Made by a program: the position numbers and the translations under genes
Assembly (NCBI GenBank): GCA_011389745.1
Contig: JAABTQ010000016.1
Location: 1 to 63,189, forward strand
DNA length: 63,189 bases
Direction of reading: 5' to 3'
DNA from: Desulfobacteraceae bacterium
GTDB lineage: Bacteria > Desulfobacterota > Desulfobacteria > Desulfobacterales > SKZT01
In this document: one piece after another, positions 45,935-52,299 of the stretch
Position numbering within the stretch: the stretch's first letter is position 1
Layout: each line of letters begins with the position of its first letter
Notes under the pieces: generated by a model
Seen by the model: only the letters and a program-made list of their open reading frames with translations
Told to the model about the DNA's origin: nothing
Databases searched by the model: none

Positions 45935-46131
45935 TTGGCTGAAGGTATTGTTAAATGGTTCAGTGATAAAAAAAAGTACGGATTTATTGAAAGGGAAAGT
46001 GGAAAAGACCCGTTTGTACATTCACAGCCGTTACCATGCAAGGATTTAAAACGCTTGCTCAGAGACATCGTGTGAGTTTTGATATTGAGGAAAGTGACCG
46101 AGGTCCTGAGGCAAAAATGTTATTAAATTGA
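45935..46131 (+). pseudogene. Cold-shock protein (CspA family) gene with a single-base frameshift
   Basis: From TTG 45935 (AGGAGG 8 nt upstream) the frame reads M-A-E-G-I-V-K-W-F then 'KKKYGFIERESGKDPFVH', a clear cold-shock domain with RNP1 (YGFI) and RNP2 (FVH). Immediately after FVH (46021) one base appears to be missing. Shifting by one frame gives 'FTAVTMQGFKTLAQRHRVSF', then 'DIEESDRGPEAKM' and a stop at 46129-46131, exactly the expected rest of a ~66-aa Csp. As written, translation stops at about 46073. Either a real inactivating indel or a sequencing error. Confidence 0.85.
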
Positions 46132-46262
46132 CATGATTGTCGAATATAACTTATATTTAATGTAAGTTTTTAGCCATGTTGACCAATAGCAATTTCATCA
46201 AAATTCATTTTTCAATTGGGCAGTCAAAATATTCAGGATAGAATGCGAAAATAAAAGGAGTT

Positions 46263-46988
46263 ATGGGGCTGATGAATGATACCAGGGTAGAAGAATTCAA
46301 CATGGATATTTCTGCAGAAAAGGAAACAGAATCCCCGGAACTCCATGATAATTTTGTCGAAGATCAAAAAAGCACGGAACCGTCACAGGATATATCCACA
46401 GAAAATGATACCGATGATTCTAATAATTCATCAAGATTTAAGGATGATCATGAAGTCTCAACAAAACTTGACAGTATATCCTCTCAAATAGATGGGCTAC
46501 AAAACGAGTTTTTAAGTAAACTCAAAAATGATGCGTTTAAAGATAAGCTAATCGATTCACTTCACCAGGAGCTTCAATCTTATAAAACCGACCTGATCAA
46601 AAAGCATGTTCAATCCATGGTCGTTGATGTGATCAAAATCATCGATGATATTCGCAAACTTTCAGAGCACTATCAGTCAATAAAACCAGAGGATTTGGAA
46701 CCTGCTAAACTGCTTCAAATTCTCGAACGAATACCTGGTGATTTGGAAGATATTTTCTTCTACCAGGGAGTCAAACCGTTTACTTGCAGCGGGAATGATT
46801 TTGATGCCACTCGCCAGAGGGTTCTGAAGCGTGTTATAACCTCTGATGCTTCTTTGGAAAATAAAGTCGCAGAAAGTTTGAAACCTGGTTATGAATGGGG
46901 CGATAAAGTGATTCGGCCTGAAATTGTAGCTGTCTACCTTTATCAGAAACTATCTGAAGAGCATGAAACGGGGATTTATAATGAATGA
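46263..46988 (+). CDS. GrpE-like nucleotide exchange factor of a dedicated Hsp70
   Basis: 241 aa. Acidic disordered N-terminus (1-70), a long coiled coil ('LDSISSQIDGLQNEFLSKLKNDAFKDKLIDSLHQELQSYKTDLIKKHVQSMVVDVIKIIDDIRKL', about 75-145) and a C-terminal beta-wing region ('RQRVLKRVITSDASLENKVAESLKPGYEWGDKVIRPEIVAVYLYQ') matching the end of GrpE ('V..V..GY......RPA.V.V'). It is divergent and longer than ordinary GrpE, implying specialisation. Its stop overlaps the start of the adjacent Hsp70 gene by 8 bp. AAAAGGAG RBS. Confidence 0.85.
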   Translation: MGLMNDTRVEEFNMDISAEKETESPELHDNFVEDQKSTEPSQDISTENDTDDSNNSSRFKDDHEVSTKLDSISSQIDGLQNEFLSKLKNDAFKDKLIDSLHQELQSYKTDLIKKHVQSMVVDVIKIIDDIRKLSEHYQSIKPEDLEPAKLLQILERIPGDLEDIFFYQGVKPFTCSGNDFDATRQRVLKRVITSDASLENKVAESLKPGYEWGDKVIRPEIVAVYLYQKLSEEHETGIYNE

Positions 46989-48642
46989 TCAGTTAAAAAG
47001 GATTTTCGGCATTGATTTGGGCACGACTTATTCATCCATAGCGTATGTGGATGAATATGGGAAGGCTGTGGTTTTGCCAAATGCGGAAAACCAGCGCGTA
47101 ACACCTTCGGTGGTTTTTTTTGATGGTGATAGCATTGTGGTCGGCGAAATCGCAAAAGAATGTTCCAAACTTTACCCCAATGAAGTGGTAAGTTTTATTA
47201 AAAGAAGCATGGGAGAATCTGACTTTATTTATGAATACAAAAAAAGAGCTTACCGGCCCGAGGAGTTATCGAGCTATGTTCTAAGAAAATTAGCTCAGGA
47301 TGCGGAAACATCTCTTGGTGAAAAAGTCACTGACGTGGTGATTACCTGCCCGGCATACTTTGGCATAAATGAAAGGGAAGCCACCCGGGTGGCGGGAGAA
47401 ATTGCAGGTTTTAATGTTCGCCAGATTATCAATGAACCTACGGCTGCAGCCATCGCCTACGGTGCTGCCGAACCTTCCGAGAAAAAGGTGGTTTTGGTTT
47501 ATGACCTGGGGGGGGGAACCTTTGATATTACCATGATTGAAATTCGTATTGATTCAATCGAAGTAATTTGCACGGGAGGTGATCACAATTTGGGAGGTAA
47601 AGATTGGGACGACCGGATTGTCGCTTACCTGGTTCAGGAATTTCAGAAAACATTGGACACTGATGAAGATATTCTGGAAGACCCTGACACGTGGCAAGAT
47701 TTGCAGCTCTCGGCTGAAAGATCAAAAAAAATTCTTTCCCAAAGGGATATAACCCCCATATCGATTACCCACGGCGGTGAAAGAATCAAGGTTGTATTAG
47801 AACGTAAAAAGTTTGAAGAAATTACTCAGGATTTATTGGAACGTACGGTTGTTTTTACTCAGGAGATGCTCCAAGAGGCCAAAGCAAAAGGCTACAGCGA
47901 TTTTGATGAAATTATTCTGGTGGGAGGGGCTACAAGAATGCCGCAGATTCCTCACCGCCTCAAAGAAGAGTTCGGCTCGGAACCAAAGATGTTTGACCCG
48001 GATGAAGCCGTGGCTAAAGGTGCTGCTATTTACGGATGGAAATTGTCTTTAAATGACGGACTGGCCATAAGAATTGCAGACAAAAGCATCAAAGGAATGG
48101 ATCATGATAGTATCATCGACCTGACACCGGACCTTATTGTTAAGCAAATGCCTCAGGAAGTCGCCGATGCTGTTGGATACACCATAGGAGCTATAAAAAA
48201 ATCACGGGTCAGTATCAAAGATGTGACCAGTAAAAGCTTCGGTGTTGTGGTTAGAAACCCTGAAGACAGAGAGCTGGTTTACAATCTGATTGTGAAAAAC
48301 ACCCCCGTACCGGTAGATGTAACCAAAGCTTTCTTTACAGCAGTGGTAAATCAGGAAACCGTTTTTATAAGAATTATGGAAAATGAATCAAAAGAAGAAA
48401 CCGTCTTCCTGAGCGAATCTATGGAAATCGGTACTGCGATTCTTAAACTTCCTAATGGGCTTCCTGCTGAACAACCGATTGAAATTTCCTTTAAACTAAA
48501 TGAGGAGGGACGACTTCAAATCGCTGCAGTGGAGACCAAAGAATCCAGCTCCGTCAATGTTGCCGTTGAAACCAAGTCGGTTATTCATGGAAAAGAACTT
48601 GATGAAGCTATATCTCGTAACCAAAGTATCATTATATATTAA
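46981..48642 (+). CDS. Truncated Hsp70 (DnaK-like) lacking the helical lid
   Basis: 553 aa from ATG 46981 (GGGGAT upstream); an ATG at 46963 is also in frame. The ATPase domain is complete: 'FGIDLGTTYSSIAYVDEYGKAVVLPNAENQRVTPSVV', 'VVITCPAYFGINEREATRVAGEIAGFNVRQIINEPTAAAIAYG', 'VYDLGGGTFDITM', 'ILVGGATRMPQIPHRLKEEFG'. The beta-sandwich substrate domain is present but starts late, after an ~80-residue insert ('IIDLTPDLIVKQMPQEVADAVGYTIG'). The protein ends right after it, without the alpha-helical lid of DnaK (~640 aa). It may bind folded or specific clients. Middle gene of the GrpE-Hsp70-J-like operon. Confidence 0.9.
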   Translation: MNDQLKRIFGIDLGTTYSSIAYVDEYGKAVVLPNAENQRVTPSVVFFDGDSIVVGEIAKECSKLYPNEVVSFIKRSMGESDFIYEYKKRAYRPEELSSYVLRKLAQDAETSLGEKVTDVVITCPAYFGINEREATRVAGEIAGFNVRQIINEPTAAAIAYGAAEPSEKKVVLVYDLGGGTFDITMIEIRIDSIEVICTGGDHNLGGKDWDDRIVAYLVQEFQKTLDTDEDILEDPDTWQDLQLSAERSKKILSQRDITPISITHGGERIKVVLERKKFEEITQDLLERTVVFTQEMLQEAKAKGYSDFDEIILVGGATRMPQIPHRLKEEFGSEPKMFDPDEAVAKGAAIYGWKLSLNDGLAIRIADKSIKGMDHDSIIDLTPDLIVKQMPQEVADAVGYTIGAIKKSRVSIKDVTSKSFGVVVRNPEDRELVYNLIVKNTPVPVDVTKAFFTAVVNQETVFIRIMENESKEETVFLSESMEIGTAILKLPNGLPAEQPIEISFKLNEEGRLQIAAVETKESSSVNVAVETKSVIHGKELDEAISRNQSIIIY

Positions 48643-48716
48643 ACACTTCGATAATCGGCACAGTAACCAATTCCTTAAACCGAAACATCCATTTATGGTT
48701 CTGATAAAAAGGTAAT

Positions 48717-51053
48717 ATGGAAAGGGATAATTTTTATATAATTTTGGACCTTTCCGTCGATCCCCCCCAAACGGATTTCACAAAGATCGAAGAGGCTATC
48801 AAAAAAAAGCAGACCGAATGGAGCAGGCTGAGGAACCATCCGATCAAGGGTATTAAAGCCCAACAATATATCGGGATGATTCCTGAAATCCGCAATGTCA
48901 TGATGAACCCAAAGCTTCGGGAAATAGAGGCCAGGGCTGCTTTGGAAATTATCAGGAAAAATGAGGAGTCAAGATTTTCAAACATTGATCGTCATTTAGA
49001 ATTACTGATGAGCAAAGGGTTCATCAAGGAAGAAGAAATATTCAAACTTGCAAAGCACCATAAAGTCAATGTTATCGAGATCCGTAATCGTATAAAACTG
49101 AAGGAGCAGAAAAAGTTTTCAGGATTAGACAAACAAATTTTAAACCGCATGAAGAAGGGCTATATTACTGAAGCGGAAATCACAATCCTCTCCAGAATCC
49201 ACGATATGGATGAAAAGATAATCCGCAAAAGAATTACCTGCCCCATCAAAAATGAAAAAACACCCCTGTTAAAAAAAGCAAAACCGCTGGATCCTTCTAT
49301 TTATAGCGTTATTGAAGATAACCTTAAAATTATCGGCCAATCATCTTTGTATGATTTTCTCGAAATTTCACCGGACTCTGAGCTTGAAGATCTACTAAAA
49401 AGGGCTAAGGATAAAGAAATCGAAGTACTCAAAATCCGTAAAAAGGATGCAATTGCTACAGCCAGCGGCGTTCTGGTGGGGCATTGCGTTTCTCTTTTTA
49501 AAAATGAGAAAAACAAAGCGTCATATGATGCAACCAGAGCTCAGGCACATCTTTCCGAACTCAATGCGGATATCAGCATAGCCGCCATTGAAGGCATTGT
49601 CCGTGCCGATAATTACGAATTTCTCGTAGACCGGGCCGTAGAATTCGGCATGAACCCTGAAGAAGCATCTGATTATATAAAAAAGTACTGCAAAAATAGA
49701 AATTGGAAAATCGAAACTGTCACAAAAAACCATAAAAATACCAGACGTTTTTTTGTGTTGGTTACTGCAATACTTATTTTTCTGTCCGCAGGAGCATATT
49801 ATGGCTTTTACTCTTATAAAAACTATAAATATAAAAATGAATACAATAATATTATCGCTGACGCTGAAAGTCAGGAAAAATTAGAAGATAAAATTGACAT
49901 TTTGAGAAATTATCTGTCCTCCCATACAAAAAATCCATTTACTCAACAGATTCAGGACAGGTATGAAGAATATGAAAAGCAAAAATTGCTAAGTGAATAC
50001 GATGAAATACTTAAAGTCGCCGATAACTTGATCCACCAGAATAATTTAGATAAAGCACTGGATGTTTACCGGCAATATCATTACAAAATTCCCAATAGTC
50101 CGCAAAAGACTGAATTAACTAGTAAAATATCCCGGCTTAACGAGATTATCGAAGATAGAGACTTTAAAGCATTAGAAACAAATATGAACCTTGAAACCAT
50201 TGAGAGAATCGCCGCATACCGTAAATACCTTGAAAAGTATCCTGAAGGAAAGCAATATCAAAATGTATTGATGCTCCTTTCAGAGCTTGGTGATGCATAC
50301 TACATAACCTTGAAGGATGAATTAGCCCAGTGTGAAAAGGAAAAAGCTTTCGAAAAATGTATCCGGCTGGCTGGCACATTCATAACATTCTACCCCGAGG
50401 ATAACAGATCCGATGAGTTAAAGAAACTTCAGAAACAGTATCGGCAAAGACTCCGGGAAGAAATGGTTCTTGCGGAACTTCGAAAAAAATCTCAGGAAAA
50501 AGGTTCTGATTATGAAGCAGCAAAACAGATTTTTATCAATTACCTGAATCTTAACCCTAACTCTCCACTTAAAAGCAGGATCCAGGATGAACTAAGACAA
50601 TTGGAAAAAAAGTTTCAAAATGCCAAAATGAGTGCTCTTCTTGAACGAAACATTGGATTGCTCAAAGCAACAGGAGGACGATTTGTAGTCAGAAAGGAAA
50701 ATATCGTTACCGACACTCACACAAATCTGATGTGGACTTTGTGGGATTCTACTTATTCCGACACCAGTTGCATGGATTATGAAACAGCTCATCAATATGT
50801 ATCCGGATTACGAACAGGCGGATACAGCGACTGGCGAATACCCGCCCCTAAAGAACTTGTCAGGCTTTATAAAACCGAACCTTTCTTTCCATTAACTGAT
50901 GCCGAGTGGTATTGGACTTCGTTAAACTTTAAAAGCTACCGGGATGGCTGGATTCAAATGGTGGATGTCATATTTTCCGATAAAAATAAGGACTATCAGA
51001 GAAAACAAATTGATTCCAGACGTTGTGGCGCCGTTCGTGCTGTAAGACCCTGA
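48717..51053 (+). CDS. Membrane protein with degenerate J-like regions and C-terminal DUF1566 domain
   Basis: 778 aa. Residues 1-75 resemble a J domain fold ('NFYIILDLSVDPPQTDFTKIEEAIKKKQTEWSRLRNHP...IPEIRNVMMNPKLREIEA'), but the HPD motif is H-P-I. Residues ~205-270 look like a second J-like unit ('SLYDFLEISPDSELEDLLKRAKDKE...SLFKNEKNKASYD') with no HPD. A membrane helix is at about 344-365. A long TPR-like helical region follows (370-640), then a DUF1566/Lcl domain (about 657-778, 'NLMWTLWDS....YETAHQYVSGLRTGGYSDWRIPAPKELVRLY...SRRCGAVRAVRP'). As the third gene of the chaperone operon it is a candidate membrane co-chaperone exposing DUF1566 outside the cytoplasm. Confidence 0.82.
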   Translation: MERDNFYIILDLSVDPPQTDFTKIEEAIKKKQTEWSRLRNHPIKGIKAQQYIGMIPEIRNVMMNPKLREIEARAALEIIRKNEESRFSNIDRHLELLMSKGFIKEEEIFKLAKHHKVNVIEIRNRIKLKEQKKFSGLDKQILNRMKKGYITEAEITILSRIHDMDEKIIRKRITCPIKNEKTPLLKKAKPLDPSIYSVIEDNLKIIGQSSLYDFLEISPDSELEDLLKRAKDKEIEVLKIRKKDAIATASGVLVGHCVSLFKNEKNKASYDATRAQAHLSELNADISIAAIEGIVRADNYEFLVDRAVEFGMNPEEASDYIKKYCKNRNWKIETVTKNHKNTRRFFVLVTAILIFLSAGAYYGFYSYKNYKYKNEYNNIIADAESQEKLEDKIDILRNYLSSHTKNPFTQQIQDRYEEYEKQKLLSEYDEILKVADNLIHQNNLDKALDVYRQYHYKIPNSPQKTELTSKISRLNEIIEDRDFKALETNMNLETIERIAAYRKYLEKYPEGKQYQNVLMLLSELGDAYYITLKDELAQCEKEKAFEKCIRLAGTFITFYPEDNRSDELKKLQKQYRQRLREEMVLAELRKKSQEKGSDYEAAKQIFINYLNLNPNSPLKSRIQDELRQLEKKFQNAKMSALLERNIGLLKATGGRFVVRKENIVTDTHTNLMWTLWDSTYSDTSCMDYETAHQYVSGLRTGGYSDWRIPAPKELVRLYKTEPFFPLTDAEWYWTSLNFKSYRDGWIQMVDVIFSDKNKDYQRKQIDSRRCGAVRAVRP

Positions 51054-51665: not shown

Positions 51666-52160
51666 TCAGTCTTCTTCCGCGCCGAACAACAATCCCCTTT
51701 TTCTATGCATGGGAAACAGAGAAGGGGTATGAATGACAACATGACGATCATCCTCCATTCTTACAGTGGTTTGATTCCATGGAGAATACCATATACCGAT
51801 ATCTTTTCCCTCCGGGGAAATAACACGAGATCCATAAATCCTGATGTCTGTGCCCCGGTGATCGGTCATCATATTGACCCATAATTTAAGCTGATCTGGT
51901 GTCAACTCCACAGATTTCCAAAGTTTAGACCTGAGCGTGTAATTTTTATGAACCCCGAGAATCGCATCAGGTCGGTTATCAGATCCGCTATAGTAATAGT
52001 TGTAATTTTCCAGAACCTGGTAGGATTCAAAAATTTTGTTTACTTCATTACTAAGGCGAAGACCACCATAACTTGCTCCCACGCATGACATAATCAGTGT
52101 GAAAACAAATATCACCGCAAAAAAAGAAACAGAAAATTTTGATAATCTCGGCTTTTTCAT
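51666..52160 (-). CDS. Hypothetical lipoprotein
   Basis: 164 aa from ATG 52160 (GGAGT 8 nt upstream); the frame opens 63 bp further but without a signal peptide at its start. Basic N-terminus KKPRLSKF, hydrophobic core and a lipobox-like L-I-M-S-C followed by V-G-A. Mature part: 'YQVLENYNYYYSGSDNRPDAILGVHKNYTLRSKLWKSVELTPDQLKLWVNMMTDHRG' and 'IRIYGSRVISPEGKDIGIWYSPWNQTTVRMEDDRHVVIHTPS', compact and beta-rich. No named family recognised. Convergent with the adenosyltransferase gene, 14 bp away. Confidence 0.75.
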   Translation of the reverse strand: MKKPRLSKFSVSFFAVIFVFTLIMSCVGASYGGLRLSNEVNKIFESYQVLENYNYYYSGSDNRPDAILGVHKNYTLRSKLWKSVELTPDQLKLWVNMMTDHRGTDIRIYGSRVISPEGKDIGIWYSPWNQTTVRMEDDRHVVIHTPSLFPMHRKRGLLFGAEED

Positions 52161-52299
52161 AACCCACTCCTCATTTATGCTAATGTAAGTTCTTCTTAAA
52201 TCTTCTATTGTCAAGGATAACATAAAAAGTTAAAAGAACACTTTGTAAATTCAAACTCACTCAACAAAAACAACCGAATGTAATATATCAGATTGTTTT

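Follow-up and report, generated by a model that had tools for sequence, protein, structure and literature searches.

An operon of three genes in a bacterial contig encodes a GrpE, an Hsp70 that stops before the lid, and a membrane protein with two J-like regions, and in this family the aspartate of the HPD triad of J domains and both of the Hsp70 residues that receive it have been replaced together. These paired changes are new here; an earlier reading of the same DNA (referred to below as the initial annotation) had missed them. The simplest reading of the compared sequences is that the contact between the first J-like region and its Hsp70 has been rewired as a pair.

Gene organization and genome context

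The window, i.e., the whole stretch of 63,189 nucleotides that was analyzed, is one whole contig of a 3.6-Mb genome whose relatives are Desulfobacterales. The initial annotation had placed three linked genes on the plus strand at positions 46263 to 51053, and the same genes were found there: a GrpE-like gene, followed by the Hsp70 gene and then by one that encodes a membrane protein of 778 residues (Table 1). This protein was designated Jm (membrane J-like protein), and its first and second J-like regions were designated J1 and J2. The GrpE and Hsp70 genes overlap, and a 74-base gap separates the Hsp70 gene from the Jm gene. Judging from the starts of homologues, the true start is probably 46272 for the GrpE and 46981 for the Hsp70. 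Promoter-like matches, one of which is listed in Table 1, were no more frequent in the upstream region than in shuffled sequences.

The neighbors of the operon in the window, hrpA and a cobalamin adenosyltransferase gene, are probably unrelated to the module, and no signaling gene adjoins the module in the window itself. A cold-shock-domain-like frame, apparently broken by a frame change, lies upstream of the operon at 45936 to 46130, and positions 51666 to 52223 encode a protein of 185 residues, membrane bound or exported, that matched no family convincingly. The ordinary grpE-dnaK and dnaJ genes are separate from the operon and have the lid and the HPD, as had been noted, but they are located on other contigs of the same genome rather than in the window.

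Table 1. Positions of the operon and of its features in the window
Feature	Position	Strand	Basis or remark
Sigma-70-like promoter match TTGACA-18-TATATT	46128..46157	+	11/12 positions; upstream of operon; consensus match only
Divergent GrpE-like nucleotide exchange factor	46263..46988	+	PF01025, E 1.5e-15; family alignment
Lidless Hsp70	46963..48642	+	PF00012, E 1.5e-109; family alignment; AlphaFold
Hsp70 ATPase domain, residues 12-362	46996..48048	+	Catalytic residues kept
Gln154, DnaK Arg167 position, first contact of HPD aspartate	47422..47424	+	Alignment
Tyr357, DnaK Gln378 position, second contact of HPD aspartate	48031..48033	+	Alignment
Helical insert, ~50 residues, between ATPase domain and linker	48049..48195	+	Kept across family
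Membrane J-like protein Jm	48717..51053	+	Pfam matches, AlphaFold
First J-like domain J1, residues 1-78	48717..48950	+	AlphaFold, fold comparison
HPI triad, residues 41-43, at HPD place	48837..48845	+	Family consensus HPT
Helical linker, residues 80-185, two copies of ~46-residue repeat	48954..49271	+	AlphaFold
Second J-like region J2, residues 194-275, no HP at all	49296..49541	+	AlphaFold, fold comparison
Single membrane helix, residues 345-363	49749..49805	+	N-in/C-out by positive charge on N-terminal side
TPR-like stretch, predicted periplasmic	49812..50636	+	TPR match E 0.0075, below Pfam cutoff
Lcl_C (DUF1566) domain, residues 663-765, predicted extracytoplasmic	50703..51011	+	E 7.8e-13; conserved cysteine pair 685/770

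A divergent GrpE and a lidless Hsp70

With 57.7 bits against a Pfam cutoff of 25.8, the GrpE of the window has a GrpE domain. It was called divergent, as in the initial annotation, because its score is far under every NCBIfam GrpE cutoff. The family alignment has a conserved end, GY-W-x-(K/V)-V-I-RPE-M-V. A PAS domain is fused N-terminally to 8 of 49 GrpEs, all in one subclade (L064, L071, L081, L084, L085, L091, L093, and L096), and it is possible that this fusion acts as a signal-gated nucleotide exchange factor.

The Hsp70 belongs to the Hsp70 superfamily by its ATPase domain, and those nucleotide-binding residues that were checked are kept in the module Hsp70s. Within this domain, the segment NBD 76-101 is deleted and the exposed loop is 6 residues shorter than that of DnaK. 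The linker reads V-x-[IV]-[KR]-[DN] instead of VLLLD. The beta part of the substrate-binding domain extends from about residue 416 to residue 550 and is followed by ∼15 residues of helix A and then the end of the protein, which bears out the initial description of an Hsp70 ending after the beta-sandwich. The AlphaFold model (mean pLDDT, 86) agrees with a lidless form, and its best matches in the PDB were mostly ATP-state, domain-docked DnaK structures (TM, ∼0.8). The protein falls outside the DnaK (PRK00290) class, as it lacks the lid, the VLLLD linker, and the residues R167 and Q378 (DnaK numbering) and scores 370, under the curated cutoff of 648.

The initial annotation had drawn a parallel with Myxococcus, in which SglK is reportedly an accessory Hsp70 paired with the GrpE GrpS. 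This parallel does not hold. SglK belongs to the PRK00290 type of Hsp70 and complements an E. coli dnaK mutant (PMC8265645), and the SglK/GrpS pair was rejected as a homologue on the basis of the score of the window Hsp70 and its missing lid.

E. coli HscC with DjlB and DjlC resembles the module in that a specialized Hsp70 is found near genes of membrane-anchored J proteins, and HscC has the same NBD 76-101 deletion and a shortened exposed loop. The exposed loop of Hsp70s helps to bind GrpE, and HscC is thought to need no GrpE. However, HscC retains R167, Q378, and the lid, and it falls outside the module family in the Hsp70 tree. DjlB and DjlC differ from Jm in being tail anchored and in having a triad in which the acid is kept; djlB and djlC of E. 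coli both read HPE, not HPD. The module thus does not belong with the HscC-DjlB/C systems.

J-like regions and topology of Jm

No Pfam J-domain model matched Jm, an HMM of J1 matched no ordinary J protein, and a PDB sequence search with Jm gave chance-level matches only. In hhalign, J1 reached a probability of 16% against a small J-domain set, two rows of which had been translated from the wrong strand, and J2 was weak against the same small, flawed set. The AlphaFold model of Jm, built on 51 relatives, had a mean pLDDT of 88.7. Its top Foldseek matches were J domains (CbpA, a pseudo-DnaJ, and DNAJB12), with probabilities of 0.98 to 1.0 and E values of 0.6 to 1.3. VIA-align rows with Z scores of 5 to 8 were nearly all J domains as well, mostly on residues 1 to 84 or ∼193 to 276; Z scores up to 8 are not decisive for small helical domains, and the weight of this comparison lies in nearly all of the top rows being J domains.

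A J fold in both J1 and J2 is well supported by the model, and J-like helices are predicted in the two regions that the initial annotation had called J-like. Both regions are J-like by predicted fold and fold comparison and not by the HPD motif. The triad is altered in J1 and absent in J2, as first described, but the HPI reported for J1 is a variant of the window's own, an exception in a family in which the triad is HPT. Within Jm, conservation is highest in J1 (0.72, compared to 0.30 to 0.64 for the other parts). The ∼46-residue helical repeat that follows it seemingly occurs in more tandem copies in longer homologues.

In 42 of 48 relatives, basic residues predominated N-terminal of the membrane helix; the remaining relatives were tied, and none had the excess on the far side. 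The cysteine pair of the Lcl_C domain was kept in 43 to 44 of the 48. From these two features Jm, with its single membrane helix, is predicted to have an N-in/C-out orientation, with residues 1 to 344 in the cytoplasm and the remainder outside. The DUF1566 domain was correctly placed beyond the membrane helix by the initial annotation. The TPR-like stretch that it had also noted has a match that falls below the Pfam cutoff.

Loss of the HPD aspartate and of both of its Hsp70 contacts

In DnaK, D35 of the HPD bonds to R167 and Q378, H33 bonds to the linker backbone, and P34 bonds to P419, and the HPD is held to be essential for every J-Hsp70 pair tested (PMC8215388). J1 keeps the H, the P, and a basic helix II (KKKQxEWSRxRNHP), and the module Hsp70s keep P419 in 55 of 55 cases and N170 in all but one. 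The R167 position, however, was replaced in all 55 (46 Q, 4 H, 2 G, 2 A, and 1 S), and the Q378 position was Y or F in all 55. One of the two patterns in the genome scan, RNHP[TI]K, biased its count of HPT, and the triad was recounted on a sample of HMM hits that was not chosen by motif. All 19 readable hits of this sample had HPT; among their partners, R167 was missing from all 18 that were readable at this position, and Q378 from all 15. Both residues were kept in all 28 Hsp70s that were compared from outside the module in related genomes, three of which have divergent linkers, and in E. coli DnaK and HscA, as well as HscC.

Because the loss of the aspartate is matched by the loss of its contact residues while H, P, and helix II are kept, the sequences favor a J domain whose contact has been rewired over one that is simply dead. 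DnaK R167H suppresses the defect of DnaJ D35N (PMC7289447, PMC5519331), and four module Hsp70s have H at the 167 position alongside HPT. A tentative interpretation, which we hold with somewhat less than even confidence, is that J1 and its Hsp70 form an orthogonal interface, in which another contact would still link docking to ATP hydrolysis, as part of a private membrane signaling chaperone derived from a GTPase/GAP1 system.

Pam16/Tim16-like proteins also have a J fold without a full HPD. Their partners are a true J protein and an Hsp70 in which R167 is probably kept, whereas in the window module the Hsp70 partner has changed too.

The paired loss could instead mean that J stimulation has been given up, since R167 substitutions in DnaK weaken stimulation by J proteins (PMC7289447). 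The J-like regions would then dock but no longer stimulate, and Jm would be a membrane client receptor for a self-cycling Hsp70. The missing aspartate in J1 and the missing triad in J2 are consistent with such a role, as are the raised basal activity and poor J stimulation of DnaK R167 variants (PMC7289447) and the ability of Hsp70s with few clients to run without J/GrpE tuning (PMC8215388). However, a relic dock would not require invariant H, P, basic helix II, and P419 or a uniformly aromatic Q378 position, and both the high conservation of J1 within Jm and the retention of a dedicated GrpE in nearly all loci also speak against it. The initial annotation had proposed a client receptor rather than an ATPase stimulator, and this is doubtful given that the aspartate was lost together with its contacts and that H, P, and helix II were kept. 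A non-stimulatory receptor is possible but second best, and a mere client receptor seems rather unlikely compared with the rewired interface.

The at least seven further J-domain genes of the window genome raise the question of whether the Hsp70 is an accessory partner of ordinary HPD J proteins, with Jm being incidental. With both receivers of the HPD aspartate gone from the module Hsp70 and the operon near invariant, this is extremely improbable.

Distribution and neighbors of the module

A genome scan with the J1 alignment found 62 loci, among which those of the kind found in the window were designated type A. The genes for GrpE, Hsp70, and Jm were in this order on one strand in 44 of the 47 untruncated type-A loci; of the remaining type-A loci, 4 were cut by contig ends, 2 had no nearby GrpE, and 1 had neither partner. 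This neighborhood survey, in which the three families co-occur in the same order, substantiates the initial proposal of a dedicated chaperone module. J1 was present in 74 of 291 genomes of the class and in 50 of 200 when good genomes were considered, and the J1 carriers listed in the class survey all share the gene order of the window. Among 20 relatives, exactly six genomes carried the lidless Hsp70, and J1 was present in precisely those six. Desulfatibacillum alkenivorans and Desulfonema magnum are among the carriers of the operon. No relative of Jm was found in the viral contigs of a viral collection, and a viral origin was rejected on this basis.

The neighborhoods of type-A loci, read by eye, were common within clades and different between clades, and many of the neighboring genes were housekeeping genes. 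The shared neighborhoods within clades and their many housekeeping genes argue for vertical inheritance of the type-A module.

A DUF4388 gene was located within ∼2 kb of the module on the same strand in 12 type-A loci, four of which also had a gene for a cNMP-PilZ-like protein, and genes for a histidine kinase paired with a sigma-54 regulator were among the recurrent neighbors. These neighbors, together with the PAS-GrpE fusions, suggest a link to membrane signaling. In Jm relatives without J1, a DUF4388 (PATAN) domain is found instead before the same TM-TPR-Lcl_C arrangement (two were checked with Pfam). PATAN regulators act on the pilus motors of cyanobacteria (PMC7690835), and this, the DUF4388 genes adjoining the module, the substitution of DUF4388 for the J part, and the Lcl_C domain itself would all be in line with the proposal of the initial annotation that the module serves in the assembly or regulation of a surface structure, for which type IV pili are an example. 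However, no pilus or secretion gene was identified adjoining the module in the loci examined, and DUF4388 is widespread in signaling, with six matches in the window genome and none of them at the module. A surface-structure role appears distinctly unlikely.

Several other arrangements were observed in the loci. Stand-alone membrane proteins with a TM-TPR-Lcl_C end were present in L037, L045-L047, and L049-L053, and those that were checked have DUF4388 (PATAN) where Jm has its J part. In one subclade (L063, L072, and relatives), a HypA/HypB-like hydrogenase nickel factor pair, identified by eye, is located just upstream of GrpE. One relative's genome has several Hsp70-like genes in a row (G008:C25:472-10505).

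Common descent with GAP1-N2 systems

All 47 type-A sequences formed one Desulfobacterales clade in the Hsp70 tree, with a support of 100/100. This clade was nested among type-B sequences from Desulfobacterales, Thiomargarita, Clostridium, Tannerellaceae, Ruminococcus, and Oxalobacter, in a tree whose rooting is limited by the long branches of HscC and HscA. The type-B loci L101, L109, L110, and L112 hold GAP1-N2 genes, and some GAP1-N2-bearing loci also have DO-GTPase-like genes, along with a second Hsp70 that carries a fused vWA domain. Hsp70s in which vWA replaces the lid were seen beside the lidless Hsp70 in type-B loci (L101:1431-3482, L105:7891-9984, L106, and L110:6939-9020) and form a separate clade. 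In Oxalobacter (L113-L116), several J1-like proteins have NPR, NPY, or DPL in place of HPD, together with Sel1 repeats, and in L113 the J1-like cluster is beside a lidless Hsp70 and a GrpE.

GAP1-N2 GTPase-centric systems carry Hsp70, GrpE, and DnaJ-FNIII (Kaur et al. 2020, PMC7159879). The module resembles them in having a lidless Hsp70 with the same insert, a GrpE, and a protein beginning with the same HPD-degenerate J-like domain, and the Hsp70-GrpE-J core of the module and that of the GAP1-N2 systems are of common descent. In contrast to these systems, the window type is without GAP1, GTPase, or vWA-Hsp70, and its J protein continues with TM-TPR-Lcl_C, where GAP1-N2 systems have zinc ribbons (FNIII was weakly seen in one). 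By sequence comparison, the window module shares descent with the GAP1-N2 group yet is not a member of it, because the window genome has no GAP1-N2 match. No GAP1-N2 or GTPase genes were seen beside the type-A loci examined, and the type-A module is read as having lost GAP1 and the GTPases and gained TM-TPR-Lcl_C.

Hsp70-GrpE-DnaJ systems of the GAP1-N2 kind have been called conflict systems (PMC7159879), and the nearest Hsp70 relatives of the module, in L101 and L109, are beside GAP1-N2 and, in L101, also beside DO-GTPase-like genes. It might be supposed from this that the module is itself a conflict (anti-invader) system like the ancestral GAP1-N2/GTPase systems. However, GAP1-N2 is missing from the window genome, the PADLOC defense library gave no match, and the housekeeping neighborhoods that type-A loci have in common within clades look vertically inherited. 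A conflict function is considered very unlikely.

Proposed mechanism

The model that we favor, with slightly better than even confidence, is a self-contained Hsp70 machine tethered at the inner face of the membrane, with a private Jm-Hsp70 pair and a role as an envelope-linked switch or in assembly. Jm would span the membrane once and recruit its Hsp70 at the inner face through J1, which would dock on the dedicated Hsp70 via basic helix II, H, and P. In place of the lever of the HPD aspartate on R167/Q378, both partners would contribute to a Thr(Ile)/Gln/Tyr arrangement, and the pair would be insulated from the ordinary DnaK and DnaJ of the cell. The operon GrpE, which is PAS fused in some species, would reset the Hsp70. 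The extracytoplasmic TPR-Lcl_C part may detect or bind an envelope ligand, and such a signal would lead to the engagement or release of the Hsp70 close to the membrane. Client binding by a lidless Hsp70 is expected to be fast and weak, which would suit a switch or assembly role better than refolding. Counting against this model are the weak sequence similarity of J1 to J domains, with Foldseek E values of 0.6 or worse, the exposed loop being shortened as in HscC, the two loci without a nearby GrpE, the one locus with neither partner, and the lack of a signaling neighbor in the window.

Implications

In this conserved family the aspartate has changed along with both of its receptors, which makes it a natural experiment that asks which component of the J signal is truly required. 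It parallels, in nature, the R167H/D35N suppressor pair and is possibly a ready-made orthogonal chaperone pair. The family further connects the GAP1-N2 Hsp70 systems with an envelope module that is vertically inherited in the Desulfobacterales. These results suggest that a naturally separated chaperone circuit is present in a quarter of the sampled genomes of one marine and sediment bacterial class.
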